DNA from: Haliea alexandrii
Lineage (GTDB): Bacteria; Pseudomonadota; Gammaproteobacteria; Pseudomonadales; Halieaceae
NCBI RefSeq assembly: GCF_003719295.1
Contig: NZ_RFLW01000002.1
Location: 734,763 to 798,762, forward strand
Direction: 5' to 3'
DNA length: 64,000 nt
The position numbers and the translations under genes were made by a program. Below, piece after piece: positions 21,579 through 51,728 of this stretch; positions within the stretch are counted from its first letter, which is position 1, and each line of letters opens with the position of its first letter. The notes beneath the pieces are model-generated. The model saw only the letters and a program-made list of their open reading frames with translations, did no database searches and was not told the DNA's origin.

Positions 21579-22454
21579 TTATTTCCAGCCCGTGACCTCG
21601 GCGAGGGCCTTGCCGATATCGGCCAGGCTACGCACGGTCTTCACGCCGGCATCTTCAAGCGCAGCAAACTTCTCGTCTGCTGTACCTTTACCGCCAGAGA
21701 TAATCGCGCCCGCGTGGCCCATACGCTTGCCTTTCGGCGCGGTAACGCCGGCGATGTAGGACACAACCGGCTTGGTCACGTTCGCCTTGATAAAGGCCGC
21801 TGCCTCTTCTTCGGCGGTGCCGCCAATTTCACCGATCATCACAATGGCTTCGGTCGCCGGGTCCTTCTCGAACATCGCCAGGATATCGATGAAGTTGGAA
21901 CCGGGAATAGGGTCGCCACCGATGCCAACGCAGGTGGACTGGCCAAAGCCTGAGTCCGTGGTCTGCTTGACGGCTTCATAAGTGAGCGTGCCTGAACGCG
22001 ACACAATGCCCACTTTTCCAGGCAGGTGAATATGACCCGGCATGATGCCGATCTTGCACTCGCCGGGGGTGATGACACCTGGGCAGTTGGGGCCGATCAG
22101 GCGCACGCCCAGCTCATCGCACTTCACTTTGCAATCGAGCATGTCGAGGGTAGGAATACCTTCGGTAATGCAAACGATGAGCTTCACGCCACCATTGGCC
22201 GCTTCCAGGATGGAATCCTTGCAAAAGGGCGCCGGCACGTAGATCACTGAGGCATCGGCGCCGGTGGCCGCTACGGCTTCCGCCACGGTGTTGAACACGG
22301 GCAGACCGAGGTGGGTCTGCCCACCTTTGCCAGGCGTTACGCCACCGACCATCTGAGTGCCGTAGGCAATCGCCTGCTCGGAGTGAAAGGTGCCCTGGGA
22401 GCCGGTGAAGCCCTGGCAGATCACCTTGGTGTTCTTGTCAATCAGAATACTCAT
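21579..22454 (-). CDS. sucD: Succinyl-CoA synthetase alpha subunit
   Basis: The 291-residue alpha subunit binds CoA and carries the phosphohistidine intermediate of ADP-forming succinyl-CoA synthetase. The N-terminal CoA domain shows [13 protein letters not shown]. The active-site His lies in [10 protein letters not shown] near residue 246. The start MSILIDKN at 22454 is two bases beyond the sucC stop. An upstream in-frame extension would overlap sucC and is not supported. Last gene of the sdh-suc operon. Confidence 0.98.
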
Positions 22455-22455
22455 T

Positions 22456-23625
22456 TCAGGCGGCTCCTTCAGCTGCTTTGACTGCCTGCTGGGCAGCATC
22501 GGTGAGGCTCGTAGCGGCGATGATGTTCAGGCCGCTGTCGGCGAGAACCTGGCGACCGAGCTCGGCGTTGTTGCCTTCCAGGCGCACAACAACCGGCACC
22601 TGCACGCCGATTTCCTGCACGGCCCCGATCACACCCTCTGCAATCAGGTCGCAACGCACGATACCGCCGAAGATGTTGATCAAGACGGCCTTGACCTTGT
22701 CGTCGGAGAGAATGATCTTGAACGCTTCGGAGACGCGCTCCTTGGTCGCGCCGCCGCCCACATCGAGGAAGTTCGCCGGTGCACCACCGTGCAGCTTGAC
22801 GATATCCATGGTGCCCATGGCCAGGCCAGCACCGTTGACCATGCAGCCGATGTTGCCGTCCAGAGCGACGTAGTTCAGTTCCCACTTGGCGGCGTGCGCC
22901 TCACGGGCATCTTCTTGCGAAGGATCGTGCATCTCGCGCAGCGCCGGTTGGCGGTACATCGCGTTGCCGTCCACGCCCAGCTTGGCGTCCAGACAGTGCA
23001 GGTTGCCCTGGTCCGTGATCACCAGCGGGTTGACCTCGATCAGTGCCAGGTCCTTGTCCTTGAACAGCTGTGCAAGGCCCATGAATATCTTGACGAACTG
23101 CTTGATCTGGTCGCCCTCGAGGCCCAGCTGGAACGCCAGTTCGCGGCCCTGGTAAGGCTGGGCACCGACCAGCGGGTCGATAATGGCACGCAGGATTTTT
23201 TCCGGCGTTTCTTCCGCAACTTTCTCGATTTCCACGCCACCTTCAGTAGAGGCCATGAAAACGATGCGACGGGTCGCACGATCAACCACCGCGCCGAGAT
23301 AGAGTTCCTCGGCAATATCGGTGCAGGTTTCGACGAGGATTTTGCTAACCGGTTGGCCGCCTTCGTCCGTCTGGTACGTGACCAGATTCTGGCCCAGCCA
23401 CTTGGCCGCGAAATCGCGCACTTCGTCAGTAGTTTTCACCAGCTTGACGCCGCCCGCCTTGCCGCGGCCGCCCGCGTGCACCTGAGCCTTGACGACCCAC
23501 ATGTCACCGCCGATGGTCTCCGCTGCCTTGACCGCCTCTTCCGGCGAATCGACAGCATACCCCTTGGATACGGGCAAGCCGTACTCGGCAAACAGCTGTT
23601 TGCCCTGATACTCGTGAAGGTTCAT
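22456..23625 (-). CDS. sucC: Succinyl-CoA synthetase beta subunit
   Basis: The 389-residue subunit starts [12 protein letters not shown] and has the ATP-grasp nucleotide domain ([17 protein letters not shown]) and a C-terminal CoA-ligase domain ([11 protein letters not shown]). Length equals the E. coli protein within one residue. It provides specificity for succinate and the nucleotide. A 110-bp gap separates it from lpd upstream, with no clear promoter in it. Confidence 0.98.
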
Positions 23626-23735: not shown

Positions 23736-26454
<2,719 letters not shown>

Positions 26455-26474
26455 TTCGGTTCCTTTGGAAAGTG

Positions 26475-29342
26475 CTAGTTCTGGTTCTTTTCGAGCCAGG
26501 TCGGTGCCAGGGCATCGTTGATAAACGCTTCCTGCTGCGCCAGATGCAGGGCCATATAGCCCGCCGCCGGTGCCGCAGAGGGTTCCCGACCCGCGTAGCG
26601 CAGATACACATCGGGGTTGTGGGCATACATCACACGCCGCATGTGATGCTGGCTGGAATACCAGGCCCCCTGATTTTGGGGTTCCTCCTGGCACCAGGCG
26701 GCGTCGGTGACGTTGGGGTAGTTTCCGAGCACCTGCAGCAGCTCTGCCTCGGGGAACGGATAAAGCTGCTCGAGCCGAACAAGTGCCACATTCTCAAGGC
26801 CGCGCTCGCGGCGAGCGGCAAGCAGGTCGTAGTAAACCTTGCCGCTGCAGAGAATAAGGCGGGTGACCGCGGCCTTGTCGAGGTCGTCGGAGTCATCCAA
26901 CACGTTGTGGAAGTGCCCGTTCGCGAGATCCTCCAATGAGGAAACCGCTTCCTTGTGCCGCAACAAGCTCTTTGGCGACATCACCACCAGCGGTTTACGC
27001 AGCGGCCGGATGGCCTGACGCCGCAGCATGTGGAACACCTGCGCCGGGGTGGTGGGCACACACACCTGGATATTGTGCTCTGCACAGAGCTGCAGAAAAC
27101 GCTCTAGACGCGCTGAGGAGTGCTCCGGGCCCTGCCCCTCGTAACCGTGCGGCAGGAGCATGGTGAGGCCGCAAAGACGCGACCACTTGTGCTCACCACT
27201 GGTAATGAACTGGTCGATCACAACCTGCGCGCCATTGGCGAAGTCGCCGAACTGCGCTTCCCATATCACCAGCCCGGTGGGCGACGTGGTGGCGTAGCCG
27301 TACTCGAAGGCGAGCACCGCCTCCTCCGACAGCAGGGAGTCGTAGATATCGAAAGGGGCCTGTTCATCGCTGATATGCTGCAGGGGCACGTAACGAGAAG
27401 CATCCTTTTGGTTGTGCAGCACTGCGTGACGGTGCGAGAAAGTGCCACGGCCTACATCCTGACCTGTGAGGCGCACCGGGTAACCGGCCTGAAGCAGGCT
27501 GGCGTAGGCCAGGGTTTCTGCGGCGCCCCAGTTCAGTGACATGGCGCCCGCCGCCATCTTGCGGCGGTCCTCAAGAATCTTGCTCACCTGGCGCTGCAGG
27601 GGAAAGCTGGGCGGCGGCGTGTTGGTCAGTTGCGCCAGCTGCTGCAATGCATGCATGTCCATGCGGGTGTCGCAGTGCAGCGTCCACTCATGGCCCAGAT
27701 AGGGATTCCAGTCAACAAACAGGCTGACGTTGGGCTCGGACACCAGGCCGCTGACCAGTGGCTCACCCCGATCCAGCGACTCGCGGTATTCATTGACGAG
27801 GTACTCGTCTTCCTCGGCACTGAGGACACCGTTTTCAACCAGCTTTGCCGCGTACAGGTCGCGTGTTGTCGGCTGCTTGCGGATGCGCTCGTACATGCGC
27901 GGCTGGGTCACCGAGGGTTCATCGGCCTCATTGTGACCGCGCCGGCGATAGCACACGAGATCGACCACCACGTCGCGCTTGAACGTATTGCGGAAATCCA
28001 CCGCCAGCTGGGTAACGAAGTGTACCGCCTCAGGGTCGTCCGCATTGACGTGGAAAATCGGCGCCTGCACCATTTTGGCAACGTCGGTGCAGTATTCCGT
28101 GGAGCGCGCATCCTCGCGATCACTGGTGGTAAAGCCCACCTGATTGTTGAGGACGATGTGCAGTGTGCCCCCCGTTTTGTAGGCACGCGTCTGGGACATC
28201 TGGAATGTCTCCATCACCACGCCCTGCCCGGCAAATGCCGCATCGCCGTGGAGAACCACCGGCACAACGGTATCCCCGGCCGAGTCCTCGCGGCGGTCCT
28301 GGCGCGCGCGCACGGAACCCTCTACCACCGGGGATACGATCTCCAGGTGTGAGGGGTTGAATGCCAGCGCCAAATGCACCTCGCCACCGGAGGTCATCAG
28401 GTTCGAGGAAAAGCCCTGGTGATACTTTACGTCACCAGACTTGTCGTAGACGACGCGTCCCTCGAACTCGGCAAACAGGTCCGAGGGCTTCTTGCCGAAA
28501 ATGTTGATCAGCACGTTGAGGCGGCCGCGGTGGGCCATGCCGATGACGATTTCCTTGGCACCATAGGATCCAATGCGCTGAACCATCTCCGAGAGCATGG
28601 GGATGAGCGACTCACCGCCCTCGAGGCCAAAACGTTTGGTCCCCGGGTATTTTGAGCCGAGGGACTTCTCCAGCCCCTCTGCCTTGATCAGCCGGCGCAG
28701 GATCTGCTTGCGTATATCATCGGAAAAAGCCGGTGCGGAACGCACGGACTCCATGCGCTTCATGATCCAGTGACGCTGCTCGGTATCCACGATGTGCATG
28801 AACTCGGCACCGATCGTGTTGCAATAGGTCGCCTCCAGCGAGTCGACGATCTCGCCCAGGGTGGCATCGGCCTTGCCGATGTACATGCTGCCGGTCTGGA
28901 ACACCGTGTCCAGATCCGCCGCAGACAGCTGGTGGAACGACAGATCGAGGTCCGGTACCGGATCCCGCACGTGCAGGCTGAGCGGGTCCAGACTTGCCTT
29001 CTGATGACCACGCTGGCGATAAGCGGACACGAGCTGTACCACCTTGACCTGCTTGCGCTCGTACTCGGTGGCCTGCGAATCGTGGGCCACGGTCGCTTCC
29101 GTGCGCACCCGCATCTTGCTGATCTGCGCAAACCGGTCGCGGATGGTGGAGTGCGGCACGTCCTGCATTTGCGCCACAGAGGAGCTGACGCGAGGCAATT
29201 TGTCGAAGTAATCCCGCCATTGTTCCGGAACGCCGTTGGGATCCCGGAGGTAGGATTCGTACAAATCCTCTACATAGGTGGCGTTGCCGCCGGCAATATG
29301 GGAGCTCCTTTTCAGGAGCTCCATCGGACTCTCTTGCATCAT
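26475..29342 (-). CDS. sucA: 2-oxoglutarate dehydrogenase E1
   Basis: The 955-residue thiamine-diphosphate enzyme decarboxylates 2-oxoglutarate and succinylates E2 lipoate. It shows [10 protein letters not shown] and [10 protein letters not shown], typical of the ThDP-binding region, and the E1o motifs AHRGRLNVL and CSGKVYYDL. Two adjacent ATGs (29342, 29339) follow GGAAGGG. The second has better spacing. A perfect 8-bp inverted repeat covers codons 7-14. It is fifth in the sdh-suc operon, 58 bp after sdhB. Confidence 0.98.
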
Positions 29343-29400: not shown

Positions 29401-30105
29401 TCAGGTTGCCCGAGTCAACAGCATAGTACGAATGTGACCAATAGCCCGCGTCGGGTTCAAACCCTTGGGGCACACATTGACACAGTTCTGGATGCCATGA
29501 CAACGGAAAACGCTGAACGGGTCGTCCAGACGCGACAGGCGCTCATCGGTTGCCGTATCGCGGCTGTCAGCCAGGAAGCGATAGGCCTGAAGCAGGCCGG
29601 CCGGGCCGATAAAGCGGTCCGGGTTCCACCAGAACGAGGGGCAGCTGGTGGAGCAGCAAGCGCACAGGATGCACTCATAGAGACCGTCCAGCTTGGCGCG
29701 GTCCTCCGGGGACTGCAGGCGTTCAATGGCCGGCGCCGGCGTGTTGTTCTGCAGGTACGGCTGGATCTTTTCGTACTGCGCGTAGAACATGCTCATGTCG
29801 ACCACCAGATCACGAATCACTGGCAGGCCGGGCAGTGGGCGCACTACCAGCTTGTTGTTCTTCACCGTGGCGGACAGCGGCGTAATGCAGGCCAGACCGT
29901 TCTTGCCGTTGATGTTGAGCCCGTCAGAACCGCACACACCCTCGCGGCATGAGCGACGATAGGTAACCGAGCTGTCCTGCGCCTTGAGCTGTTCCAACAC
30001 GTCCAGCACCATCAGGTCCTTGCCTTCGGTGTCGAACTGGAAATCCTGCATGTAGGGCTGCTGGTCAGTTTCCGGGTTGTAACGATAAATGCTTACTTGC
30101 AGCAT
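29401..30105 (-). CDS. sdhB: Succinate dehydrogenase iron-sulfur subunit
   Basis: The 234-residue subunit carries the electron-transfer clusters of complex II. The [2Fe-2S] site is in SCREGVCGSDGLNING, the [4Fe-4S] site in CILCACCSTSCPSFWWN, and the [3Fe-4S] site near CHGIQNCVNVCPKGLNP. It is peripheral on the cytoplasmic side, passing electrons from SdhA FAD to quinone at SdhCD. Confidence 0.98.
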   Translation of the reverse strand: MLQVSIYRYNPETDQQPYMQDFQFDTEGKDLMVLDVLEQLKAQDSSVTYRRSCREGVCGSDGLNINGKNGLACITPLSATVKNNKLVVRPLPGLPVIRDLVVDMSMFYAQYEKIQPYLQNNTPAPAIERLQSPEDRAKLDGLYECILCACCSTSCPSFWWNPDRFIGPAGLLQAYRFLADSRDTATDERLSRLDDPFSVFRCHGIQNCVNVCPKGLNPTRAIGHIRTMLLTRAT

Positions 30106-30134: not shown

Positions 30135-31907
30135 TTAATACGTACGGGCTTTCGGCTCAAATGTGGGCACGGTGCGTGGCTTGAAGTTTACATCGCGCTT
30201 GCCCACTCGCTTGTCTTCCGGGTAATACATGGAATGGCAGAGCCAGTTTTCATCGTCGCGCTCCTGGAAGTCGTCGCGGGCGTGCGCGCCGCGGCTCTCC
30301 TTGCGCTCCTCTGCGGTAATCGCGGTTGCCTCGGCCACTTCCAGCAGGTTCTGCAGTTCCAGTGCCTCAATACGCGCCGTGTTGAAGGTGCTGCTGCGGT
30401 CGGTCAAGGCTGCACCTTCAATGCGGCCGCGCAGGTCAGCCAGCTTGCGAATGCCATCCTGCATGAACTCGCCCTTGCGGAATACGCCGAAGTGGTTCTG
30501 CATGACGTTCTGCAGCTCCTTGCGCAGGTCGGGGAACTTCTCGCTGCCGGTGGCCTCGTCAAGGCGGCGCAAGCGGGCCATGCCCTGCTCGATATCGCCC
30601 TGGGAGGCATCGCGCATCTCGATACCTTCGCGCAGCGCATTCTCAATAAACAGGCCAGAGGCGCGACCGAATACCACGAGGTCAAGCAACGAGTTGCCAC
30701 CCAGGCGGTTGGCACCGTGCACAGACACACAGGCAACCTCGCCACAGGCGTAGAGGCCCGGGATGATCTGGTCGTTACCCTGCGCATCCACGGTCAGGGC
30801 CTGGCCGTGCACGTTGGTGGGGATACCCCCCATCATGTAGTGGCAGGTCGGCACGACAGGAATCGGCGCCTTCACCGGATCCACGTGTGCAAACGTACGC
30901 GACAACTCACAGATACCGGGCAGACGCGACTCAAGCACTTCCTCACCGAGGTGGTCGAGCTTCAGGAACACGTGATCCGCCTCAGGACCGCAGCCGCGGC
31001 CTTCGATAATCTCGAGGATCATGGAGCGCGCAACCACGTCCCGGCCGGCGAGGTCCTTGGCGTTCGGCGCGTAACGCTCCATGAAACGCTCGCCATCCTT
31101 GTTGATCAGGTAGCCACCCTCACCGCGGCAACCTTCGGTGACCAGCGTACCGGCACCGTAAATGCCGGTCGGGTGGAACTGCCACATTTCGATGTCCTGC
31201 ACCGGGAAGCCGGCGCGCAGCGCCATGCCGATGCCGTCACCGGTATTGATGTGGGCGTTGGTGGTGGAAGCGTAGATGCGCCCTGCGCCACCAGTGGCGA
31301 AGACAGTAGCCTTGGACTTCACGTATACCGTTTCACCGGTTTCCATGCAGATGGCGATAACCCCTACCACGGCGCCGTCCTGGTTCTTCACCAGATCGGT
31401 GGCGTACCACTCATTGAAGAAAACGGTGTTGTTTTTCACGTTACCCTGATAGAGGGTATGCAGCAGTGCGTGACCGGTGCGGTCCGCTGCCGCGCAGGTG
31501 CGCGCCGCCTGGGTGGGGTCGTCCGGCCCCTTGGACTGGCCGCCGAAAGGACGCTGGTAGATGCGGCCCTCTTCCGTACGGGAAAAGGGCAGCCCCATGT
31601 GCTCGAGCTCGAACACGGCCTCCGGGCCCACGCTACACATATACTCGATCGCGTCCTGGTCGCCGATGTAATCGGAACCCTTGACCGTGTCATACATGTG
31701 CCAACGCCAGTCGTCGTTCGGATCGGCGCTGGCAATAGCGCAGGTGATGCCACCCTGCGCAGACACCGTGTGGGAGCGCGTGGGGAACACCTTGGAAATT
31801 ACCGCGGTCTTGTAGCCGGACTGCGCCAGTTGCAGCGCGGCCCGCATGCCGGCTCCGCCGCCGCCAACAATCACGCCATCAAAAGAAATCGTTCGCAATG
31901 CTGTCAT
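30135..31907 (-). CDS. sdhA: Succinate dehydrogenase flavoprotein subunit
   Basis: The 590-residue subunit oxidises succinate to fumarate with covalent FAD. It shows [11 protein letters not shown] near the N-terminus, the FAD-linking His in [14 protein letters not shown], and the active-site region [19 protein letters not shown]. It lies 3 bp after sdhD. Length and order match E. coli sdhCDAB. Confidence 0.99.
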
Positions 31908-39802: not shown

Positions 39803-39815
39803 AACAGGTTCCTGT

Positions 39816-41531
39816 TTAGTGTTCGAGTGACTTGTAGCGTTCGCGCAGCCTGTTGCGCAAACTGACGGCGGCCAGATTGAGCAGGGCGATGATCAACACC
39901 AACAACAATGCTGTTGCATACACCAGCGGGCGCGCTGCCTCCACGTTCGGACTCTGGAAGCCGACGTCATAAATATGAAAGCCCAGGTGCATGAACTTCT
40001 GGTCGAGATGGAGATAAGGGTAGTTGCCGTCCAGCGGCAGCGTGGGTGCGAGCTTCACCACGCCGACCAGCATCAAAGGCGCGACCTCCCCTGCCGCGCG
40101 GGCAACGGCGAGAATAAGGCCGGTCATCATGGCCGGGCTGGCCATGGGCAATACCACCCGCCACAGTGTTTCCGCGCGGGTCGCACCCAGCGCGAGAGAC
40201 CCCTCGCGCACGGTGGAGGGAATACGCGCCAGCCCCTCCTCAGTCGCCACGATAACCACCGGCAGGGTGAGCAACGCCAGCGTCAACGACGCCCACATGA
40301 GTCCTGGCGTGCCAAAGGTTGGACGCGGCAGCGAAGCCGGAAAAAACAGCTGGTCCAGCTCGCCACCCACAAAGTAGACAAAAAAGCCCAGGCCAAAAAC
40401 ACCGTAAACAATGGAGGGCACCCCGGCCAGGTTGTTCACTGCCACGCGTATTGTACGCGTGACAAAACCCTGACTGGCGTACTCACGCAGATACACCGCC
40501 GCCACAACACCGAAAGGCGTGACGATGATGGACATCAGAATCACCATCAACACCGTGCCAAACATGGCCGGGAACACGCCACCCTCGGTGTTGGCTTCGC
40601 GCGGCGGCTCGGAGAGAAATTCCCAGAGGTGCTCGACATACATTGCTATCTTGGCGAACACGTTCATGGCATTGGGCTGGTAGGCACGCACCACCTTGGC
40701 GATAGGCAAGGTCACCACGCGACCATCAGCCAGCTCGGCGCTATAGCTGTGGTCTTTTATGCTGTCGTACAGTGTGTAGAGTTGCTCCTGCAAGGCGCGG
40801 AAACTGGCTTCCTGCTCTGCCCGCTTGCTCGCCAGGTCGGCCTGGGCCGCCGCATCCAGTCGCCCCTCCAGCTCGAGCCCGCGCTCGCGCAGACGCAGGC
40901 GCTCCAACTCGTAGTTGATGGCACCAATCTCGCCCTGCTCGATATCGTGGATTTCCTCGCGCACCGCAACGGTGTCGACAATCAAGGCCTGCAATGCCTC
41001 CAGGGTCGCCGCCTCGCCGTGCTCAACAACGGTCACCGGGTCTTCGCCGAACCGGCTAACGGCGCGCAGGTAGCCGTAGAAGTTGCCCCACTCAAGGCGT
41101 TCCACGACCATCACGTCGAGAGGATAACGTCGGGGGCCGAACTGCTCATCGATAAGCCAGGTGAAGTCCGTGCCGAGAAAATCACGGTTGCCCTGCTTCA
41201 TCAGTGTACGCTGAAAGAACGGCCCCGGGCCCTGCAGTTCAAAACCGGCCTCGCGCAACTGGGCACCCGGGACTTCAACCTGTTCGACGACCTCACCCAA
41301 CAGTTCACGGGTCTGCCCCTGGTAGCTGACGGACACCGCCAGCACATCCGCCGGCCAGAAATGGCTCAGTCCGCGCACAGCCAGCAGCAGCAGCAGACCC
41401 ACCACCGCAATGACACTCACACTCACCGCGGCGCCGTTGAGCCATATCAGCGGATCGCCGCCGCGCAACCATTTGCCAACACCGGGAGCGCGGTCGCTGT
41501 GAAGTTCCTGCTCGTTGATCATCCTGTTCAT
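39816..41531 (-). CDS. pstA: Phosphate ABC transporter permease PstA (long form)
   Basis: The 571-residue permease has a first helix at about 36-57, then a predicted periplasmic segment of about 240 residues with a coiled-coil stretch, then the usual PstA permease domain (about 300-571) with the ATPase-contact loop [19 protein letters not shown]. coli PstA has about 300 residues, so the insert is extra. ATG 41531 overlaps the pstC stop by one base (TGATG). Confidence 0.95.
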
Positions 41532-43843
41532 CAAAGTGACCCGTACTTGATGCGCAACCGCTGCCGAACCAGCTCGGCCACGGTGTTAACCATGAAGGTG
41601 AACATGAAGAGCACAAAGGCAGCCAGAAACAGCACACGATAGTGCGTGCTATCCACTTCGGCTTCCGGTACCTCTACCGCAATATTCGCCGACAGCGTAC
41701 GCATGCCTTCAAAAATATTGGCATCCATGATCGGCGTGTTGCCCGTCGCCATCAGCACGATCATCGTCTCACCCACCGCGCGGCCCAGGCCGATCATGAG
41801 GCCGGAGAAAATACCCGGGCTGGCCGTGGGAATAACCACACCCACCAAGGTCTGCCAGGGGGTCGCCCCCAGCGCCAGGCTGCCATAGCTCAAATGCTTG
41901 GGCACCGAGAAAATGGCATCCTCCGCAATCGAGAAAATCGTGGGGATAACGGCCATACCCATGGCGATACCGACCACCAGCGCGTTGCGCTGATCAAAGG
42001 AGATGCCCAGTTCCGTGGTGATCCAGCCGCGCATGTCACCGGCAAAGAACCACAGCTCCAGCATGTCGTTACTGGCGAAACTGGCGTAACCGATGAACAA
42101 AACCACCGGAACCAGCACTGCGGCATGCCAGCCGTCGGGTAACCGGGCGCGAATCGCCAGTGGCAGGCGTGACCAGAGAAAGGCGAACAGAATCACGCCA
42201 ACAGGCAGCGCCAGCATCAGGGTGACCACGGCGGTCAGCTTGTCTTCTATCAGGGGCGCCAGCCAGAGGCCGGCGAGGAAACCGAGAATCACGGTGGGCA
42301 ACGCTTCCATGAGCTCGATCACCGGCTTGACCTTGCGCCGCAGGGCCGGCGCCATGAAATAGGCCGTGTAAATGGCACCGCAAATCGCCAACGGCGCGGC
42401 AATCATCATGGTGTAGAACGCGGCTTTCAGCGTGCCGAAGGCGAGCGGCGCAAAACTGTACTTGGGCTCGAAGTCATTATCCGAGGCGGAGGACTGCCAC
42501 ACGTGAGCCGGCTCATCGTAGCTTTCGTACCACACCTCGCTCCACAGCGCCGACCAGGAGACATCCGGATGTTCGTTATCGATGTGCCAGCTGCGCAAGC
42601 TACCATCGGCGTCCACCAGCAGCAGCGCGTCAGCACGCGGGGAAATAGCGGCTGCGCCCGCGCCCAGGGGCAATGCGCTTTCACTCAACAGGCGCCGATG
42701 CGATGTGGTGTGATAGATCTGCACTTCGCCCTGCCGGCCCAGCGCCACAAACCCCTTGCGGCGATGTTCAGGCAACAGCGTGGCGATGCTGACACCGTCC
42801 GTCTCAAATTCGCGGATGCGCTGCAGGCGGTGCCCACCCTCTCCGTCGCGGACCATGAAATACTGCACCAGCTCGGCGCGGTCGGAGGCGGCAAGCAGGG
42901 AAATGCCCCCCAGCAGCATGGCGCTGCCGCTCAGTTGGCCGCCGCCGGAAAACAGTTCACCACGGCTCGCCACCTCGAGCTTGCCGGTCCCGTCACGTTG
43001 CCGCAGGTTGATAACGGCGAAGCCACCCTTGCTGTCGATGTGGTAGAGCCAGTGCAGATTTTCGTCGATATGAAAATCCGTCGTCTCGCCCGCGAGCGTT
43101 GGCAAGGGCAGTATTTCCAGATCGAAACTCACCTCGCCGGTCAGGAAATTCTCGGCACGGTTGTAGCGCTGAGCGTGCAAGACGCCCGTGGCATCCTGGG
43201 CTACGATCACCAGAGCGTCGTCATTGTCGCCCACCGCCAACTTCTGCGTGGGGCCCTCGCCGATGTGAATGGCAAGCTCGGGATAGAGACGCTCAACCCG
43301 CGGCGTAATCAGGCGCTCGCCACCCGGGTAACTGAGGCGGTATTCATGCGTGTGCAGCGACACCGCGCCAGAGGTGTGGGCGACCGCCAGCAAACGCTTG
43401 CCAGCGCTCTCTTCTGCCACCGCAGATACCGGCCCCAGGTCAGCGGCCAGGTCCGCTTCGAGAACAACGCGCCCGCTGTCCAACTGGAAAAAACTGCCGC
43501 GCGCGTCGGCAAACACCGCAAAGCCCATTTCCGTCTGCTCTTCCACGGCCAGATACAACGGCGCGGATGCAAAGGGTGAGGCCACCTCGGTACGCTTCTC
43601 TATCGAGGCATTGCCGAACAGGGGCAGCACTTCGTAGAGCAGATAGAAGAAAATCAGCAGGATAGCGATCAGTACGCTAGCGCCGCCCGCCGTGACGGAC
43701 ACGGTGGCGGCGCGATCCTTAAAATGTCTCCAGCGGGGTGTAAAGGGAGACACGTGTTCGCTCAATTTAGTCAAGACAGAATCACTCGATCGGCGATTGT
43801 CGGCACCAGGCAGGCTGCAAGCAGCCCGCCCGGCGATTTTCAT
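41531..43843 (-). CDS. pstC: Phosphate ABC transporter permease PstC (long form)
   Basis: The 770-residue permease has one helix at about 51-77, a large predicted periplasmic region of about 380 residues with WD/beta-propeller-like strands (FQLDSGRVVLEADLA, VAHTSGAVSLHTHEY), and the PstC permease domain (about 455-770) with the loop ALGATPWQTLVGVVIPTA. E. coli PstC is about 320 residues. The start is uncertain: ATG 43843 lies 3 bp after pstS with a poorly spaced ribosome site, and internal GTG/TTG starts exist. Confidence 0.94.
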   Translation of the reverse strand: MKIAGRAACSLPGADNRRSSDSVLTKLSEHVSPFTPRWRHFKDRAATVSVTAGGASVLIAILLIFFYLLYEVLPLFGNASIEKRTEVASPFASAPLYLAVEEQTEMGFAVFADARGSFFQLDSGRVVLEADLAADLGPVSAVAEESAGKRLLAVAHTSGAVSLHTHEYRLSYPGGERLITPRVERLYPELAIHIGEGPTQKLAVGDNDDALVIVAQDATGVLHAQRYNRAENFLTGEVSFDLEILPLPTLAGETTDFHIDENLHWLYHIDSKGGFAVINLRQRDGTGKLEVASRGELFSGGGQLSGSAMLLGGISLLAASDRAELVQYFMVRDGEGGHRLQRIREFETDGVSIATLLPEHRRKGFVALGRQGEVQIYHTTSHRRLLSESALPLGAGAAAISPRADALLLVDADGSLRSWHIDNEHPDVSWSALWSEVWYESYDEPAHVWQSSASDNDFEPKYSFAPLAFGTLKAAFYTMMIAAPLAICGAIYTAYFMAPALRRKVKPVIELMEALPTVILGFLAGLWLAPLIEDKLTAVVTLMLALPVGVILFAFLWSRLPLAIRARLPDGWHAAVLVPVVLFIGYASFASNDMLELWFFAGDMRGWITTELGISFDQRNALVVGIAMGMAVIPTIFSIAEDAIFSVPKHLSYGSLALGATPWQTLVGVVIPTASPGIFSGLMIGLGRAVGETMIVLMATGNTPIMDANIFEGMRTLSANIAVEVPEAEVDSTHYRVLFLAAFVLFMFTFMVNTVAELVRQRLRIKYGSL

Positions 43844-43846
43844 GCC

Positions 43847-44833
43847 TTACAGGCCCAATTGCTGACTGTAACGGTCCACGACTGCCGCGGGCAGCGGAAT
43901 GTAACCGTCTTTCAACACAACATCCTGACCCTGGCGCGAGAACACCAGCTTGAAGAACTCGCGCTCCAGCGGCGACAGCGGCTTGTTCGGGTCCTTGTTC
44001 ACATAAACGTAGAGAAACCGCGCCAATGGGTAGCGGCCGGAGATTGAGTTTTCTACATCTGCTTCGAAGTAGGGCCCGCCCTGAGTCTTGCTGATCGGCA
44101 CCGTACGCACGCTGGAGGTGCGGTAACCGATACCCGAATAGCCGATGCCATTGATAGACGTGGATACCGACTGCACCACCGAGGCCGATCCGGGTTGCTC
44201 ATTGACGCTATTCTTGAAGTCGCCTTTGCACAGTCCTACGGTCTTGAAATAGCCGTAGGTACCAGAAACGGAGTTGCGACCGAACAACTGCATATCACGG
44301 CCCTCCCAGGCACCGCCAAGGCCCAGTTGCCCCCATTGGCCAATATCCTGCGCTGCGCCGCATTTACGCGTAGAGGAAAATACGGCGTCCACCTCGGCAA
44401 TCGACATGCCCTCGATCGGGTTGTCCTTGTGCACGTATACCGTGAGGGCATCGATAGCGACCGGGACTGCAGTCGGCTTGTAGCCATACCGGGTTTCGAA
44501 GGCCTCGATCTCCTTGTCGCGCATGTCACGGCTCATCGGGCCGATATTGGCGGTGCCCTCAGTCAGCGCCGGCGGCGCCGTGGACGAGCCTGCGGCCTGA
44601 ATCTGGATGTTGACGTTGGGGTAGGCGCGTTTGAAATCCTCAGCCCACAGTGTCATCAGGTTGGCGAGCGTATCGGAGCCGATGCTGGAGAGGTTACCGG
44701 ACACGCCACTGGCAATTTCGTAGTCCTTGAGACCGGGATCCAGCTCGGCCAATGCAACCGGCGCCATGCCCACAACGAAAGCGCTGGCTCCCGCCACTGC
44801 TACCGACTTTCTCAGCCACTGTTTGATCGACAT
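43847..44833 (-). CDS. pstS: Phosphate-binding protein PstS
   Basis: The 328-residue periplasmic protein starts [17 protein letters not shown] at 44833 with AGGAG 6 bases upstream. A signal peptide ends near VALA. Phosphate-site motifs include [14 protein letters not shown] and [13 protein letters not shown]. It delivers Pi to PstCA. A PhoB box lies at 44887-44904. First gene of pstSCAB-phoU. Confidence 0.97.
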
Positions 44834-44870
44834 AAAGCACTCCTGTGTATAGCGGAATTGGACGAGGCAC

Positions 44871-44915
44871 ACAGTACCGCCAAGATGTGACACTATTATG
44901 ACAATCGCATGTCGG
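44871..44915 (-). promoter_or_regulatory. Pho box and promoter of pstS
   Basis: TTGTCAT (44898-44904) and GTGTCAC (44887-44893) are spaced 11 bp with an AT-rich gap. A weaker third unit lies at 44909-44915. TACTGT (44871-44876) lies 10 bp downstream of the box, the usual distance of a -10 in PhoB-activated promoters. Confidence 0.85.
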
Positions 44916-44922
44916 GCGCACG

Positions 44923-46197
44923 TCAGCGCCGAAAAGCCAGGGTAAAGGTGCTGCCTTTGCCCAGTATACTGGCAATGCGCAGCTCCGCACGGTGCCCGGC
45001 AGCGATGTGTTTGACGATCGCCAGGCCCAGCCCTGTACCCCCGGTAGCCGACGAGCGGCTGTCGTCAACGCGGTAAAAACGCTCTGTGAGCCGCGGAATG
45101 TGCAGAGCATCAATGCCAATGCCCTGGTCCTCCACCGCCAGCAACAGCTCATCGTCACGCTGCCGCCACGAAACTGTCACCGAACTGTCATGTTTACTGT
45201 ACTTGAAGGCGTTGAGAATGAGATTGGAGACCGCGCTGTGCAACTCGCGGTAGTCACCGGGAATCTTTTCCCGGGTGTCCAGCTGCAGCGACAGCGTGCG
45301 CTCGGGGTACAAGGTTCTCAGCTCATCCGCAAGATCCTGTAGCAGGCCCGCGATATCGACCTGCTCGCGCCGAGCCTGCGTGCGCACGCTCTCCAGGCGC
45401 GACAGCCAGAGCAGGTCCTTGAGCAAATTCTCCATGCGCTCGGTCTGCTGTGACATCTGTTCCAGCGGGCGCCGAAAGCGTGCCTCAAGTTGCTGCGCAT
45501 TCGCCAGGATCATCTCGAGGTAGCCCTTGATGACCGTCAGCGGCGTGCGCAGCTCATGCGAAACGTTGCCCACGAAATCGCGCCGCATCTGCTCCAAATG
45601 CGCCTCCTTGGTCACATCGCGCACGAAAACGAGGCGGTCACCGTTGCCGAAAAGCGTGATGGCAAACTGCAGCGTCTGCTCGCGCTCTCCCTGCATGCGC
45701 AGTTGCAGCGGGTCATCGAAGGCGCCCGCAATATAGTAGCGGTGAAAGGCGGGCAAGCGCACCAGGTTCAGCAGCGCCTGGCCGCGGTCTGTCGGATAGC
45801 GCAGTCCCAACAGGCGCTGGGCGGCATGATTGCTCCACTCGATCGAACCGGCGGCTGTGATCATGATGGCGCCATCATGCATCGATGACAGTGAATCCTG
45901 CAGGTAATCCAGGCGTGAACGCAGATCACTCTCGCGCTCCCTCGCTTTGCGCTGTAGCTGGTACAGACGGTCGTACATCTCCCCCCAGAACCCCAGCGCC
46001 TCCGGGGGTTCAATCGCGGGGTCCGCAAGCCAGTGCAGCAAGCGACGCATCTGCCACAGCCAGCGCGTGGCAAGCACAAGCAGAACTACGGAAAGTAACT
46101 CCCAGGACAGGCCCAGCGGCCAGCCCACGGCCAGTGCCGCAGCAACCAGTACAACCAGCCGGCGCAACTCTGCCAGCCAGGCAGCCTGTGGACTCAC
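44923..46197 (-). CDS. phoR: Phosphate regulon sensor kinase PhoR
   Basis: The 424-residue histidine kinase has two N-terminal helices (about 13-45), a PAS domain (about 100-195), the phosphoacceptor His214 in [10 protein letters not shown], and an ATP-binding domain with N box [13 protein letters not shown]1 VEDQGIGI and G2 [11 protein letters not shown]. The start is GTG at 46197, overlapping the phoB stop by 4 bases. It senses Pst/PhoU status and phosphorylates PhoB. Confidence 0.97.
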
Positions 46198-46904
46198 CGC
46201 GCGGGAACGCCGCGGGCAGAGAAGCGATAGCCGGTACCACGAACCGTTTGCACAAGGTCACTGTAATCGGCCTGGGGGGTTTGCAGCGCCTTGCGCAAGC
46301 GGCGGATATGCACGTCCACCGTGCGTTCCTCAACGTAAACGTTGGCGCCCCAGACCTGATCGAGCAATTGACTGCGGGTATAGGCGCGCTCGGGGTGTGA
46401 CATGAAAAACTGCAGTAGATTGAACTCCGTGGGCCCCATATCGACCGGCTCATCCAGCAGGAAGATACGTCGGCTTTCGCCGTCGAGTACCAGTTCCGCC
46501 ACCTGGATGCGATCCTGCTCATCCCCACCCGCGGAGCGACGCATCAGCGCCTTGATGCGGGCGATCAGCTCACGCGGCGCGAACGGCTTGGTAATATAGT
46601 CATCAGCGCCCACATCGAGGCCCTGGATGACGTTGTCTTCAGCAGTCTTCGCAGTCAGCATGATCACCGGCACGTCGCGGGTGGTATCGGTGCGTTTCAG
46701 GCGCCGCAGCAGCTCCAGGCCGCTGCCGCCGGGCAGCATCCAGTCCAGCAGCACCATATCGGGTCGCTCGTCGACGATCAAGGTGAAGGCATCCTGGATA
46801 TTCTCCGCTTCCAGACAGCGGAATCCCGCAATTTCCAACGCCATGCGCAACATGTCGCGAATGGCAAACTCATCATCAACAATTAATACCTGACGTTCAT
46901 TCAT
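46194..46904 (-). CDS. phoB: Phosphate regulon response regulator PhoB
   Basis: The 236-residue OmpR-family regulator has receiver acids Asp10/Asp11, phosphoacceptor Asp54, and Lys in ITKPFAPREL. The C-terminal winged helix contains RTVDVHIRRLRKAL. It binds the three Pho boxes found in this window, including its own, so it is autoregulated. Operon with phoR. Confidence 0.98.
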   Translation of the reverse strand: MNERQVLIVDDEFAIRDMLRMALEIAGFRCLEAENIQDAFTLIVDERPDMVLLDWMLPGGSGLELLRRLKRTDTTRDVPVIMLTAKTAEDNVIQGLDVGADDYITKPFAPRELIARIKALMRRSAGGDEQDRIQVAELVLDGESRRIFLLDEPVDMGPTEFNLLQFFMSHPERAYTRSQLLDQVWGANVYVEERTVDVHIRRLRKALQTPQADYSDLVQTVRGTGYRFSARGVPAR

Positions 46905-47034: not shown

Positions 47035-48087
47035 CTAACGCAGGCTTGCGTTGATGTTCGCCAGCACCTTGTCTCCGGGGCAGAGATCTTCCTCGGTCAG
47101 GCTATTCAGCGGACGGCGCGAGGTTTCCATGACGTCGTGCAGGTCCCGAGAGTCCTTGTCCATGTAAATGAGGCCGGTGAGTATCTGGCCCTCGGCGCTG
47201 TGTTTCTGCAGCGCCACCATGGCGGACACACGATCGAACGGGTCAAGGTCGGGGGCGAGCTTCTCCAGGTGCAACACGGAGCCATCGTGCAGCGTGACGT
47301 CCTGGGTACGGCCTGCCGGATAGCTGGCGGTGATTTCCTCGCGCATTGGCACGAAATCCACCGTACCGGTAGCTTCAGCATGTTCACGCACGAAATCATA
47401 GCTCTTGGTAGAGCCCGGGTTGTTGTTGAAGGTTACGCAAGGCGAGATGACATCAATCAGCGCAAAACCGCGATGTGAAATAGCGGCCTTGATCAGCGGC
47501 ACCAGCTGGCCCTTGTCGCCGGAAAAGCTGCGCGCCACAAAGGTGGCCCCAAGCTGCAGGGCCAGGCCCGGCAGGTCGATGGCGGAAAAGGGGTTCGGGT
47601 CGCCCTTCTTGCTCGCCGACCCAGCATCGGCGGTAGCTGAGTCCTGCCCCTTGGTCAACCCGTAGCAACCGTTGTTCATGACGATGTAGACCATGTTCAG
47701 GTTGCGCCGCACCGCGTGGGCAAACTGTCCCATGCCGATGGAGGCCGTGTCGCCGTCGCCGGAGACACCCAGATAGAGCAGATCCCGATTGGCCATATTG
47801 GCACCGCTCACCACCGAAGGCATGCGCCCGTGCACAGAGTTGAAACCGTGAGACTTGCCCAGGAAATAGGTGGGTGCCTTGGACGAACAGCCGATGCCGG
47901 ACAACTTGGCAATCCTGTGTGGCTCCAGCGCCAACTCGTGGCAGGCGCGCACGATGGCACCGGATATGGAATCGTGGCCACATCCCGCACACAAGGTGGA
48001 GATGGCGCCTTCATAGTCAGCGCGAGTGTAGCCGAGCGTGTTGACCGGCAGATCCGGGTGACGGAATTTGGGAAGCTGATAGCTCAT
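47035..48087 (-). CDS. korB: 2-oxoacid:ferredoxin oxidoreductase beta subunit (KorB-like)
   Basis: The 350-residue ThDP subunit has Cys33 and Cys36 (LCAGCGH), Cys67 (GIGCSSK) and a later Cys in SPCVTF that together should hold a [4Fe-4S] cluster. The ThDP/Mg motif is GVSGDGDTASIG followed by MNNGCYGLTKGQ. With the alpha subunit it oxidatively decarboxylates a 2-oxoacid to acyl-CoA. 2-Oxoglutarate is the likely substrate by family resemblance, but this is not proven. Its start overlaps the alpha-subunit stop by 4 bases. Confidence 0.93.
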   Translation of the reverse strand: MSYQLPKFRHPDLPVNTLGYTRADYEGAISTLCAGCGHDSISGAIVRACHELALEPHRIAKLSGIGCSSKAPTYFLGKSHGFNSVHGRMPSVVSGANMANRDLLYLGVSGDGDTASIGMGQFAHAVRRNLNMVYIVMNNGCYGLTKGQDSATADAGSASKKGDPNPFSAIDLPGLALQLGATFVARSFSGDKGQLVPLIKAAISHRGFALIDVISPCVTFNNNPGSTKSYDFVREHAEATGTVDFVPMREEITASYPAGRTQDVTLHDGSVLHLEKLAPDLDPFDRVSAMVALQKHSAEGQILTGLIYMDKDSRDLHDVMETSRRPLNSLTEEDLCPGDKVLANINASLR

Positions 48088-49946
48088 GAGCTCATCTCCG
48101 CGCCGGCGACCACGCGCTCGCGACGCAAGGGGGTAACGTTGTAGCCGGGCATCTGCTGTAATATCTGCTTGCGAATATTCCGGGCACTGATGGGATTGCC
48201 GTCAAAACAGAGTACGGACTTCAGTTTGTCCGGACCCAATTCGAACTCGGCCATGAGCAGCGTACGCAATTGCGCATCGCGATTCTGCTCAATGACAAAA
48301 ACACGTTCGTGACGCGCGATAAAAGCCGCAACTTCATGGTTGAAGGGGAAGGCTCGCACACGCATGGCATTCAGCGGTACGCCGTCTTCGGCCAGGTAAT
48401 CGCGGGCCTCCATCGAGGATTCCTCGCTGGTACCATAAAACAGGATGGCGGTATCGGTGCCCTGCTCGCTTTGTGTTTCCACCGGCCGCGGCACCCATTC
48501 CTTGATGGTTTCCCACTTTGCCATGAGGCGATGCATGTTCTTCTCGTATTCCTCACCCTTCTCGGTATACACCGCATATTCATCGCGCGAGGTACCACGA
48601 GTGAAAAACGCGCCTTTGTCCGGGTGGGTACCGGGAATGGTGCGATAACAGATGCCGTCGCCATCGACGTCCAGATAGCGTCCGTAACGTTCCATTTCTT
48701 CCAGTTGCTCTGCATCCAGAACCTTGCCGCGGTCGTAGCGACGTGCATCGTCCCAGGTCAGTGGCGGCGACATGTTGTCGTTCATGCCCAGGTCGAGGTC
48801 GGTCATGAGAATGATGGGGGTTTGCAAACGCTCCGCCAGATCAAAGGACAGTGCGCCGAAATCGAAGCACTCCCTGGGCGTGGACGGGAACAGCAACACC
48901 TGCTTGGTGTCGCCGTGAGAAGCATAAGCGGCGGACAATACGTCGGACTGCTGGGTGCGGGTCGGCATACCGGTGGACGGCCCTGCTCTCTGCACGTCAA
49001 ACAGCACCGTGGGAATTTCAGCAAAGTAGGCCAGGCCGAGGAACTCGCTCATCAGGGAGAGGCCCGGGCCACTGGTGGCGGTGAATGCCCGCGCGCCATT
49101 CCAGCTTGCACCCACCACCATGCCAATGGCGGCCAGCTCATCTTCCGCCTGCAGGATCGCGTAGTTCTTGCGCCCCGTGCCCGGATCAATGCGCAGCCGT
49201 TTGGCGTAGCGATCAAAGGCATCAACCACGGATGTGGACGGTGTGATCGGATACCAGGCCGCCACCGTGGCGCCGCCATAAATGGCGCCCAGCCCAAGGG
49301 CTGTGTTGCCGTCGAGGAGGATATTGTCGCCCACCTTGTCGGAGGCGCGCACACGAATGCCAAGCGGGCAGTCGAAGTGTTCCTGGGCGTACTGGTAGCC
49401 GAGCTCCAGCGCGTGGATATTGGGTAGAATGAGCTTGTCCTTGCCCTTGAACTGGTCTTCCACCAGACCGGTGAGGACGGCGAAATCCATATCCAGCAGC
49501 GCCGCCAGCGCTCCCACGTAAATCACGTTACGAAACAGCTGGCGCTGCCGCGGATCCTCGTATTCCTCGTTGCACATACGCGTGAGGGGGATGCCGATGA
49601 TATTGACATCATTGCGCATCAGGCGCAGGTCGAGGGGCTTGGTGTTGTCGTAGATGAAATAACCACCCGGCTCCACTTCCCTGATGTCCTGCGGCATGCT
49701 CTGCGGGTTCACCGACAGCATGATATCCACGCCACCGCGGCGGCCGAGGTAACCGCGCTCACTGACGCGCACTTCGTACCAGGTCGGCAGGCCCTGGATG
49801 TTGGAGGGAAAAATGTTCTTGGGGCACACCGGCAGCCCCATCCGGAAAATAGCCTTGGCAAACAGGTTGTTGGCACTGGCGCTACCGGTGCCGTTTACGT
49901 TGGCAAACTTGATGACGAACTCATTGACTGATTGCAGCGCTTGCAT
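48084..49946 (-). CDS. korA: 2-oxoacid:ferredoxin oxidoreductase gamma-alpha fusion subunit (KorA-like)
   Basis: The 620-residue protein fuses a gamma domain (about 1-190, with NVNGTGSASANNLFAKAIFR) to the alpha subunit (about 205-620). The alpha part shows AWYPITPSTSVVD, LQAEDELAAIGMVVGAS, TATSGPGLSLMSE and the CoA-region motif GPSTGMPTRTQQSD. This fused order is usual for KorA-type enzymes. It lies 3 bp after the FAD/Fe-S subunit gene. Confidence 0.93.
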   Translation of the reverse strand: MQALQSVNEFVIKFANVNGTGSASANNLFAKAIFRMGLPVCPKNIFPSNIQGLPTWYEVRVSERGYLGRRGGVDIMLSVNPQSMPQDIREVEPGGYFIYDNTKPLDLRLMRNDVNIIGIPLTRMCNEEYEDPRQRQLFRNVIYVGALAALLDMDFAVLTGLVEDQFKGKDKLILPNIHALELGYQYAQEHFDCPLGIRVRASDKVGDNILLDGNTALGLGAIYGGATVAAWYPITPSTSVVDAFDRYAKRLRIDPGTGRKNYAILQAEDELAAIGMVVGASWNGARAFTATSGPGLSLMSEFLGLAYFAEIPTVLFDVQRAGPSTGMPTRTQQSDVLSAAYASHGDTKQVLLFPSTPRECFDFGALSFDLAERLQTPIILMTDLDLGMNDNMSPPLTWDDARRYDRGKVLDAEQLEEMERYGRYLDVDGDGICYRTIPGTHPDKGAFFTRGTSRDEYAVYTEKGEEYEKNMHRLMAKWETIKEWVPRPVETQSEQGTDTAILFYGTSEESSMEARDYLAEDGVPLNAMRVRAFPFNHEVAAFIARHERVFVIEQNRDAQLRTLLMAEFELGPDKLKSVLCFDGNPISARNIRKQILQQMPGYNVTPLRRERVVAGAEMSS

Positions 49947-49949
49947 GGT

Positions 49950-51728
49950 TTATTGCCCCGCTTTGGTGACGCTGTAGAGGAATTTCTGCATGTCCCAGGC
50001 AGAAGTGGGGCAACGCTCGGCGCACAGGCCGCAGTGCAGGCAGACGTTTTCATCCTTGACCATGACCCGGCGTGTTGGCAGCTCTGTGGAGACGTAAAGG
50101 TCCTGGGCAAGGTTGCCGGCCGTTGCGCTCAGACGTGTGCGCAACTCGGTTTCTTCGGCATTTTCGACAAAGGAAATGCAATCGGTCGGGCAGATATCGA
50201 CACAGGCGTCGCATTCAATGCAGCGCGGCGTATCGAAAACGGTTTGCACATCGCAATTGAGGCAGCGTTCCGCTTCCTTGAAACCGGTACCGACATCGAA
50301 GCCCAGCTCCACCTCCAGCTTGCGGTTGCGCAGCGTTTCCTCCAGCGGCGCCATGGGTACGACAAAGCGCTTGTCATTCTCGATCTGGTTGTCATAGCTC
50401 CACTCGTGAATGCCCATTTTCTGGCTGAGCAGGTTGGTCATGGGCGCTGGGCGGTTACTCACCGGCTCCGCCTTGCAGAACAGGTCGATACTGATGGCCG
50501 CCTGATGGCCGTGCGCCACGGCGGTGATGACATTTTCCGGACCAAACGCCGCGTCACCGCCGAAGAATACCCGGGGGTTGGTGGACTGGAAGGTTGCCTT
50601 GTCGACGACGGGCATATCCCAGTTGTCGAATTCGATACCGAGATCGCGCTCTACCCAGGGGAAGGCATTGTCCTGTCCGATGGCCATGAGTACGTCATCG
50701 GCCTCCATGAACACGAGGTCCTCGCCCGTGGGCACCAGGCTCCGCTTGCCGTTTTCATCGTAGTGCGCTTCGACCTTCTCGAAGTGCATGCCCTTCAGCT
50801 TGCCATCCTCGACTACAAATTCCTTGGGTACGTGGTTGTCGTAGATGGGGATGCCCTCGTGCATGGCATCCTCCTTCTCCCAGGGTGATGCCTTCATGTC
50901 AGCAAAGGGGCTGCGCACCACGACGCGCACATCCTCGCCACCGAGCCGGCGTGAGGTACGGCAGCAATCCATTGCCGTATTGCCGCCACCCAGCACCAGT
51001 ACCCGCCTGCCGATTGCAGTGGTGTGCTCAAAGGCGACGCTGGCCAGCCAGTCGATACCGATATGGACCTGTTTCCCGGCCTCCTCCAGCCCCGGCAGGT
51101 TCAGCCCTTTGCCGCGGGGAGCTCCCGTGCCAACAAAAACCGCGTCATAGTCCTTGTCGAGCACACTCTTCAGGCTGGTGACTTCCGTGTTGAACTGCGT
51201 CACTACGCCCATGTCGAGAATGTACCCCACCTCCTCGTCCAAGACCGAGGCCGGCAGACGGAAAGAGGGAATCTGGCTGCGCATCATGCCGCCGCCGGCA
51301 AACTGGTTGTCGTAGATGTCGATGTCGTAGCCCAGTGGCATGAGGTCCCGCGCCACCGTCAGGGATGCCGGGCCGGCACCAATCAGGGCAATGCGTTTGC
51401 CGTTCTTCTGGGCCGGGATCTGCGGCAGGCGCGCGCTGATATCGGCTTTGTTATCTGCCGCAACACGCTTCAGGCGACAAATCGCTACCGGCTCCTCACC
51501 TTTGGCGATGCGACCGCGGCGACAGGCCGGCTCACAGGGCCGGTCGCAGGTGCGCCCCAGAATGCCGGGGAACACGTTGGACTCCCAGTTCACCATGTAG
51601 GCGTCGTCGTAGCGGCCCGCGGCGATCAGACGGATGTACTCCGGAACCGGCGTATGCGCGGGACAGGCATACTGGCAATCGACAACTTTGTGGAAGTATT
51701 CGGGATTCTTGATATCAGTAGGGTTCAC
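49950..51728 (-). CDS. GltD-like FAD/NAD(P) and Fe-S subunit of the 2-oxoacid oxidoreductase
   Basis: The 592-residue protein has an N-terminal GltD-type Cys-rich domain (CQYACPAHTPV, LGRTCDRPCEPACRRG), an FAD motif ALIGAGPASL, an NAD(P) motif LVLGGGNTAMD and the second FAD motif FFGGDAAFGPENV. A C-terminal ferredoxin-like part has CIECDACVDICP and CLHCGLCAERCP. It is first in the operon and should move electrons between KorAB clusters and NAD(P)(H). A comparable third subunit is known, as I recall, from the 2-oxoglutarate:NADP oxidoreductase of Azoarcus evansii. NAD versus NADP preference is not clear. Confidence 0.88.
   Translation of the reverse strand: MNPTDIKNPEYFHKVVDCQYACPAHTPVPEYIRLIAAGRYDDAYMVNWESNVFPGILGRTCDRPCEPACRRGRIAKGEEPVAICRLKRVAADNKADISARLPQIPAQKNGKRIALIGAGPASLTVARDLMPLGYDIDIYDNQFAGGGMMRSQIPSFRLPASVLDEEVGYILDMGVVTQFNTEVTSLKSVLDKDYDAVFVGTGAPRGKGLNLPGLEEAGKQVHIGIDWLASVAFEHTTAIGRRVLVLGGGNTAMDCCRTSRRLGGEDVRVVVRSPFADMKASPWEKEDAMHEGIPIYDNHVPKEFVVEDGKLKGMHFEKVEAHYDENGKRSLVPTGEDLVFMEADDVLMAIGQDNAFPWVERDLGIEFDNWDMPVVDKATFQSTNPRVFFGGDAAFGPENVITAVAHGHQAAISIDLFCKAEPVSNRPAPMTNLLSQKMGIHEWSYDNQIENDKRFVVPMAPLEETLRNRKLEVELGFDVGTGFKEAERCLNCDVQTVFDTPRCIECDACVDICPTDCISFVENAEETELRTRLSATAGNLAQDLYVSTELPTRRVMVKDENVCLHCGLCAERCPTSAWDMQKFLYSVTKAGQ

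Follow-up and report, generated by a model that had tools for sequence, protein, structure and literature searches.

A three-subunit 2-oxoglutarate:NADP+ oxidoreductase (KGOR) was reportedly described in 2003 from Azoarcus evansii, a species which we take to be placed in Aromatoleum today. Its subunits of about 63, 62 and 37 kDa are said to carry FAD, thiamine diphosphate (ThDP) and iron-sulfur (Fe-S) clusters, with an iron content of 24 per dimer of trimers. The enzyme reportedly accepts NADP+, not NAD+, and is said to be induced for the reduction of benzoyl-CoA in the anaerobic degradation of aromatic compounds, with similar open reading frames (ORFs) in Bradyrhizobium. In the present study the operon korC-korA-korB (korCAB) of Haliea alexandrii was analyzed, which lies in a stretch of 64,000 nucleotides (NCBI RefSeq assembly GCF_003719295.1, contig NZ_RFLW01000002.1, positions 734,763 to 798,762 of the forward strand; hereafter the window) together with the genes of 2-oxoglutarate dehydrogenase (OGDH). 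Its product is probably a three-subunit 2-oxoglutarate:NAD(P)+ oxidoreductase of the kind known as KGOR from A. evansii.

In the literature, KGOR appears among the clades of the GltD family (PMC10134865, citing Ebenau-Jehle et al., 2003, J Bacteriol 185:6119). KorAB of Mycobacterium tuberculosis was reported as an air-stable enzyme oxidizing 2-oxoglutarate beside another 2-oxoglutarate enzyme, KGD; its contribution on carbohydrates alone is small, and omission of fatty acids relieves the defect of the mutant (PMC2773412). For the Halieaceae, a genome paper of 2023 lists a 2-oxoglutarate ferredoxin oxidoreductase besides OGDH (PMC10100682). The operon korCAB, correctly observed in an earlier note made from the letters of the window alone, is a known kind of enzyme, and the co-occurrence of such an enzyme with OGDH in Halieaceae is already in print. 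What is new is that the third gene is recognized as that of the KGOR flavoprotein, that it is found far outside the genomes with class I benzoyl-CoA reductase, and that SucA is missing from three genomes with korC.

Results

The kor genes and their products

The three genes, which lie where the earlier note had placed them, are separated by 3 bases (korC-korA) and overlap by 4 bases (korA-korB), and were assigned from their ORFs and Pfam/NCBIfam matches:

49950..51728, minus strand: korC, GltD-like FAD/NAD(P) subunit, 592 aa, GTG start
48084..49946, minus strand: korA, subunit of a 2-oxoacid:acceptor oxidoreductase with gamma and alpha fused, 620 aa
47035..48087, minus strand: korB, ThDP/[4Fe-4S] beta subunit, 350 aa

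The closest CHARACTERISED enzyme is encoded by korC-korA-korB on plasmid 2 of Aromatoleum aromaticum EbN1 (WP_011255089, -088 and -087), with the same gene order and identities to the window genes of 64, 61 and 66%, respectively. The operon is filed here as of the KGOR kind, the link of sequence running through EbN1 and not through the proteins of A. evansii.

KorA combines a POR (gamma) and a POR_N (alpha) domain and scored 567.1 bits with TIGR03710 (cut-off 482.75). KorB shows TPP_enzyme_C and is PorB_KorB-like; with 196.8 bits it stayed below the cut-off of TIGR02177 (PorB_KorB, 261.9) and is a diverged member of the superfamily outside this curated subfamily. The best solved matches of both proteins are MmOGOR (6n2n) and StOFOR (5b46-5b48). 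In KorC, Fer4_20, Pyr_redox_2 and a Fer4_7 dicluster were recognized; its best NCBIfam match, PRK12771, reached 392 bits, below the cut-off of 516, and residues 18-417 align to residues 47-458 of chain B of 4ylf, presumably the Nfn of T. maritima.

Sixteen cluster-type cysteines of KorC (C18, 22, 61, 65, 69, 84, 489, 492, 503, 506, 509, 513, 563, 566, 569 and 573) are conserved in 150-152 of 152 aligned rows, which are partly redundant, and hence there is room enough for four predicted [4Fe-4S] clusters, a GltD/Nfn-type pair and two of ferredoxin type. The two extra ferredoxin-type clusters which the earlier note had proposed for this subunit agree with these cysteines and with the Fer4_7 dicluster. 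If the scheme of Nfn and DsrL (PMC7596348) is mapped on KorC, the distal N-terminal cluster would include C18 and C69 among its ligands, and the proximal one C22, C61 and C65. Ahead of C18, KorC holds no cysteines to match the Nfn ligands Cys39 and Cys42; the invariant pair C489-x-x-C492 and C84 are candidates for completing the ligands of the N-terminal clusters, in which C489 and C492 may replace Cys39 and Cys42. The cluster-type cysteines of KorB (C33, C36, C67 and C217) are invariant in 69/69 rows.

Active-site residues were mapped according to the study of StOFOR (PMC5020499). The Thr of the YPITP motif, Arg344a and Thr349a are present in all 74 KorA rows, Lys49b and Leu123b in all 69 KorB rows. 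Since the exchange K49bI abolished the use of 2-oxoglutarate in StOFOR1 (PMC5020499), conservation of Lys49b fits 2-oxoglutarate as substrate. Position 468a, an Asp in the StOFORs, is Thr in the window KorA and in 56/74 rows altogether, and Ser in the other 18.

Distribution and co-inheritance

Orthologues of KorC were called by a gap in score, with >760 bits for the whole or split gene as opposed to <200 bits for the next GltD-like proteins. They were found in 34/58 genomes of a sample of relatives (window genome included), in 30/37 genomes of its own family (f1), in 31/369 genomes of a class sample and in 24/398 genomes of a phylum sample. One match of 33% identity in the class sample (G407) and matches of 32-38% identity in 30 genomes of the phylum sample were not counted as KorC; a korC cut by a contig end (G382) is included in the 31/369 and was left out of the set of 80 korC-bearing genomes and of the Fisher test (30 + 339 genomes) used below.

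Among named loci, taken as the best 80 of at least 593 stretches, the nearest belong to Sediminihaliea albiluteola and Halioglobus, and others to Bacteroidota, e.g., the cultured Runella zeae and Cyclobacterium xiamenense, and to Acidobacteriota, the latter only as metagenome-assembled genomes (MAGs), at 68-75% identity. The order korC-korA-korB on one strand was kept in 71/80 of these loci (L142 has the genes 4.1 and 1.6 kb apart), plus two plasmid loci, and the operon is therefore no chance reading. Four of the 80 leave the contig within korA, and five show no korA at 1e-20, among them L121 and L140 with 10 kb and L112 with 3.6 kb of downstream flank. Pairwise distances of KorC, KorA and KorB correlate with r = 0.81-0.87 over 69 loci (top of 500 permutations 0.19), a correlation to which shared species history contributes. 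In a KorC tree of 94 rows (quick method, midpoint root), many of them MAGs named by record title, the rows of Bacteroidota and Acidobacteriota group together beside the gammaproteobacterial rows. The tree is consistent with placement of the window in the Halieaceae, and no firm claim on horizontal spread of korC is drawn from it.

In the window korC is flanked by korA and a transglycosylase gene. Ten loci of Halieaceae type (L085-L094), some of which end early, were compared: a block smc-zipA-ligA-transglycosylase lies upstream in 8/10 and phoB-phoR downstream of korB in 4/10, both as in the window. Because these flanking genes are common to the loci, the kor operon would be a long-standing locus in the family rather than a recent insertion. 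After the kor operon, positions 38236-46904 (minus strand) of the window hold phoB-phoR-pstS-like genes and two large phosphate-permease-like genes, named by eye from their translations. A relative with reaction-centre genes (Photo_RC) carries a decayed relic of the korC N-terminus, 38 residues long (G019:C20; L252 6453-6566), with no korA or korB in 13 kb; this relic is a trace of kor operon loss.

Co-occurrence with 2-oxoglutarate dehydrogenase

The earlier note had placed sucAB-lpd in the same window, where these genes were indeed found, together with sdhAB and sucCD and all on one strand:

30135..31907, minus strand: sdhA, succinate dehydrogenase
29401..30105, minus strand: sdhB, succinate dehydrogenase
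26475..29342, minus strand: sucA, OGDH E1 (redundant route)
25201..26694, minus strand: sucB, OGDH E2 (ORF as listed)
23736..25175, minus strand: lpd, dihydrolipoyl dehydrogenase
22456..23625, minus strand: sucC, succinyl-CoA synthetase (ORF start as listed)
21579..22499, minus strand: sucD, succinyl-CoA synthetase (ORF start as listed)

Model matches of the sucB ORF begin only at residue 81-83, so that the true start is probably downstream.

SucA (PF16870) was detected in 76/80 korC-bearing genomes (77/80 with a fragment that a protein search found in G396) and in 279/369 genomes of the class sample overall. The redundancy, from which a special use had been proposed, is common to nearly all carriers and not peculiar to the window genome. 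Replacement of OGDH as a general reason for korCAB is ruled out by the same counts.

In three carriers, G232, G370 and G424, the protein search found no SucA. They are 97-99% complete, represent three families and hold an intact korCAB. In G370 and G424 the sole E2 (PF00198) is AceF beside AceE. G232 is a single contig of 1,194,046 bases with 34% GC, in which korCAB lies about 10 kb from the sdh-suc cluster:

G232:C1, 754428-759005: sdh-suc cluster without sucAB-lpd
G232:C1, 769594-774271: korCAB

The cluster reads sdhA-sdhB-sucC-sucD, with only 56 bases between sdhB and sucC where the window has sucAB-lpd. The genome also has icd and acnB, whose identities to E. coli are 67 and 66%, as well as a protein of the citrate synthase family (31%). 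Neither SucA nor an E2 was found in G232, PF00676-type E1 not being part of the search; AceE, AceF and Lpd of E. coli matched only partially (30% over 159, 32% over 95 and 26% over 122 residues, respectively), and SucB and Lpd of the window gave no match at 1e-5. The only 2-oxoacid:ferredoxin oxidoreductase (OFOR) found in this genome was korCAB, with no match to YdbK at 1e-3. KorCAB is the best candidate for the conversion of 2-oxoglutarate to succinyl-CoA in these three genomes, and such natural carriers without SucA support 2-oxoglutarate as its substrate.

Discussion

Proposed function

The assignment to the KGOR kind is based on genes, domains, conserved residues, co-inheritance and natural SucA-less carriers, all of which were observed here. 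In the proposed mechanism KorAB would bind ThDP, decarboxylate 2-oxoglutarate, pass the electrons one at a time via the single [4Fe-4S] cluster of KorB and release succinyl-CoA. In KorC the electrons would travel via the C-terminal two-cluster ferredoxin domain and then the N-terminal GltD/Nfn-type clusters to FAD, which would reduce a pyridine nucleotide, most likely NADP+. The path drawn in the earlier note, on which the electrons of a 2-oxoacid reach NAD(P) by way of ThDP, Fe-S clusters and FAD and which is redundant with OGDH, is supported; complex formation, electron path, cofactor choice and physiological role are what we infer. In the host, KorCAB would be a second way of converting 2-oxoglutarate to succinyl-CoA, next to SucAB-Lpd, and would yield NADPH instead of NADH, which in our view could be useful at NADH excess, e.g., when fatty acids are oxidized. 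Certain other genomes apparently have KorCAB as their sole route. The data on M. tuberculosis KOR together with the fatty-acid-centred metabolism of SAR86 suggest, and do not show, such a role for an NADP-linked KorCAB when NADH is in excess.

Several observations weigh against this assignment, in its cofactor, its cluster geometry or its substrate. The motif YRR marks the NADP-using DsrL-2 (PMC7596348), and it is replaced by VRS in KorC of the window (residues 271-273), in Aromatoleum and in 142/152 rows altogether. The remaining 10 rows, e.g., that of G424, show ARK or ARR at this NAD(P) site, and the cofactor may differ between the two types. With VRS in place of YRR the sequence leaves the pyridine nucleotide of KorCAB unsettled, and NADP+ rests on what is reported of A. 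evansii. The AlphaFold model of KorC is poor (pLDDT 60.8, most Fe-S segments <50) and gives no support to the cluster geometry; because of this low confidence no fold search was made from it. In the class sample SucA was absent in 3 or 4/30 genomes with korC vs 86/339 without (Fisher p 0.07-0.18), the trend being towards more SucA with korC; SucA-less carriers are exceptions, and genomes without SucA show no enrichment of korC.

Alternative explanations

The other adverse points concern the substrate, which might be another 2-oxoacid (pyruvate, branched-chain or aromatic), with an overlap with OGDH that is only apparent. StOFORs with the same Lys49b and Leu123b take pyruvate as well as 2-oxoglutarate, and the exchange D468aA abolished the use of 2-oxoglutarate in StOFOR1 (PMC5020499), yet 468a is not Asp in KorA. 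G232 furthermore lacks an E2 of pyruvate dehydrogenase, which leaves room for pyruvate use by its only OFOR found. Nevertheless, the 2-oxoglutarate-specific KorAB of Hydrogenobacter thermophilus also lacks Asp468a and has Leu instead (PMC5020499), so that the evidence from this position points both ways, and the active-site residues are compatible with 2-oxoglutarate, not decisive. In G370 and G424 AceEF is retained and SucA is missing, which leaves the 2-oxoglutarate step to be covered. The earlier note's choice of 2-oxoglutarate gains from these carriers and G232 and from the kinship to korCAB of Aromatoleum, with the active site fitting without deciding, and another substrate appears unlikely. 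A different proposal is that korCAB mainly feeds low-potential electrons, as reduced ferredoxin, to a demanding reductase, KorC being a side exit or docking subunit. KorAB of Thauera serves benzoyl-CoA reductase, and korAB is found in aromatic-degradation clusters of two strains of Rhodopseudomonas palustris (PMC9973337). The two-cluster ferredoxin domain of KorC could dock such a partner, and nifH was found in 8/80 korC-bearing genomes (G324 adds a short nifH piece), counted only above the curated cut-off because the model matches weakly in nearly all genomes including all 14 controls. HGD-D proteins (PF06050, a family with subunits of the class I benzoyl-CoA-reductase type and of hydroxyglutaryl-CoA dehydratase, and not known to cover class II benzoyl-CoA reductase) occur in 2/80. 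The window genome, however, has neither nifH (best model match 29 bits vs a cut-off of 394) nor an HGD-D protein nor reaction-centre genes, other low-potential reductases not having been searched for. Moreover, it encodes elsewhere a second KorAB without adjacent korC, beside a gene like zinc alcohol dehydrogenase:

G000:C1, about 138358-140906 (L169 3359-5907), minus strand, on another contig: second KorAB, with an alpha subunit of 565 aa, above the TIGR03710 cut-off, and a beta subunit of 337 aa

The alpha subunit of this enzyme shares 28% identity with KorA of the window. For plain ferredoxin reduction the second KorAB would be the better candidate. The low-potential use put forward in the earlier note is therefore not borne out in this genome, and supply of a reductase as the main function of korCAB is improbable.

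A use linked to light, also considered in that note, was rejected: the window genome is without Photo_RC, and 4/5 Photo_RC-bearing genomes among the 58 searched lack korC. In family f1 reaction-centre genes mostly go with the absence of korC, being present in 4/7 genomes without korC vs 1/30 with it (Fisher p 0.0025, uncorrected for kinship). There is, finally, hardly any likelihood that KorCAB runs in the opposite direction, with succinyl-CoA being carboxylated in a tricarboxylic acid (TCA) cycle that is reductive or partly so. MmOGOR, which among solved structures matches KorA and KorB best, represents a type of enzyme that is used reductively; on the other side, a pyridine nucleotide as partner lacks the reducing power for this carboxylation, and the second KorAB of the window genome is nearer to MmOGOR (320 vs 211 bits, alpha subunits).

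Wider meaning

If the KGOR assignment is extended to all carriers, KorCAB might be a widespread, NADPH-making and lipoamide-free alternative to OGDH in at least three phyla and many aerobes, a parallel TCA step (perhaps for fatty-acid growth and NADH excess) able to take over where sucAB was lost, independently in several lineages; this broader view is tentative, and we hold it to be somewhat doubtful. The kind is reportedly known from anaerobic aromatic degradation, yet 78/80 carriers are without HGD-D, 72/80 without nifH over the cut-off and 76/80 with SucA. If KorCAB is NADP-linked, common marine and soil bacteria would have in it a source of NADPH that has drawn little notice. Thanks to the SucA-less carriers, simple complementation could test which substrate it uses physiologically.

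Comparison with known systems

The reported subunit sizes and cofactors of the A. evansii enzyme match KorC, KorA and KorB, while its reported iron content is below the five clusters per trimer suggested by the window cysteines. It is said to act in the context of benzoyl-CoA reduction, whereas the window genome is without HGD-D and has a full OGDH. Experimental work on a KorC-bearing enzyme from an aerobe was not found in a partial search of the literature. KorAB of M. tuberculosis carries gamma, alpha and beta on two genes, as does KorAB of the window; the available sections of that study mention no GltD-like partner and name methyl viologen as the acceptor in the assay (PMC2773412). Likewise, the available sections of the Halieaceae genome paper leave the KorC subunit and NADP unmentioned, and the enzyme meant there may include the other KorAB (PMC10100682). 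For SAR86 an alternative TCA cycle with 2-oxoglutarate:ferredoxin oxidoreductase has already been published (PMC11582366); G232 is similar to SAR86 in size and GC, which is a resemblance only.

Among solved structures, MmOGOR (6n2n/6n2o) and StOFOR1/2 resemble KorAB in family, the YPITP motif, the active-site Arg and Thr and one beta-subunit cluster; they were solved as alpha-beta enzymes and have no GltD-like subunit, which in korCAB is KorC. KorC itself is similar in layout to DsrL and to the large subunit of Nfn, with two clusters at the N-terminus and the FAD/NAD(P) part. The partner of electron-bifurcating Nfn is a small subunit with a second FAD and [2Fe-2S], whereas the neighbours of korC, to which the search was confined, are korA and the transglycosylase gene. 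The likeness of the C-terminal dicluster is to DsrL, which was described with an N-terminal two-cluster domain, an FAD domain with an embedded NAD(P) domain and a C-terminal two-cluster ferredoxin domain (PMC7596348). DsrL partners DsrAB, whereas the predicted partner of KorC is KorAB, with korC directly linked to korAB.

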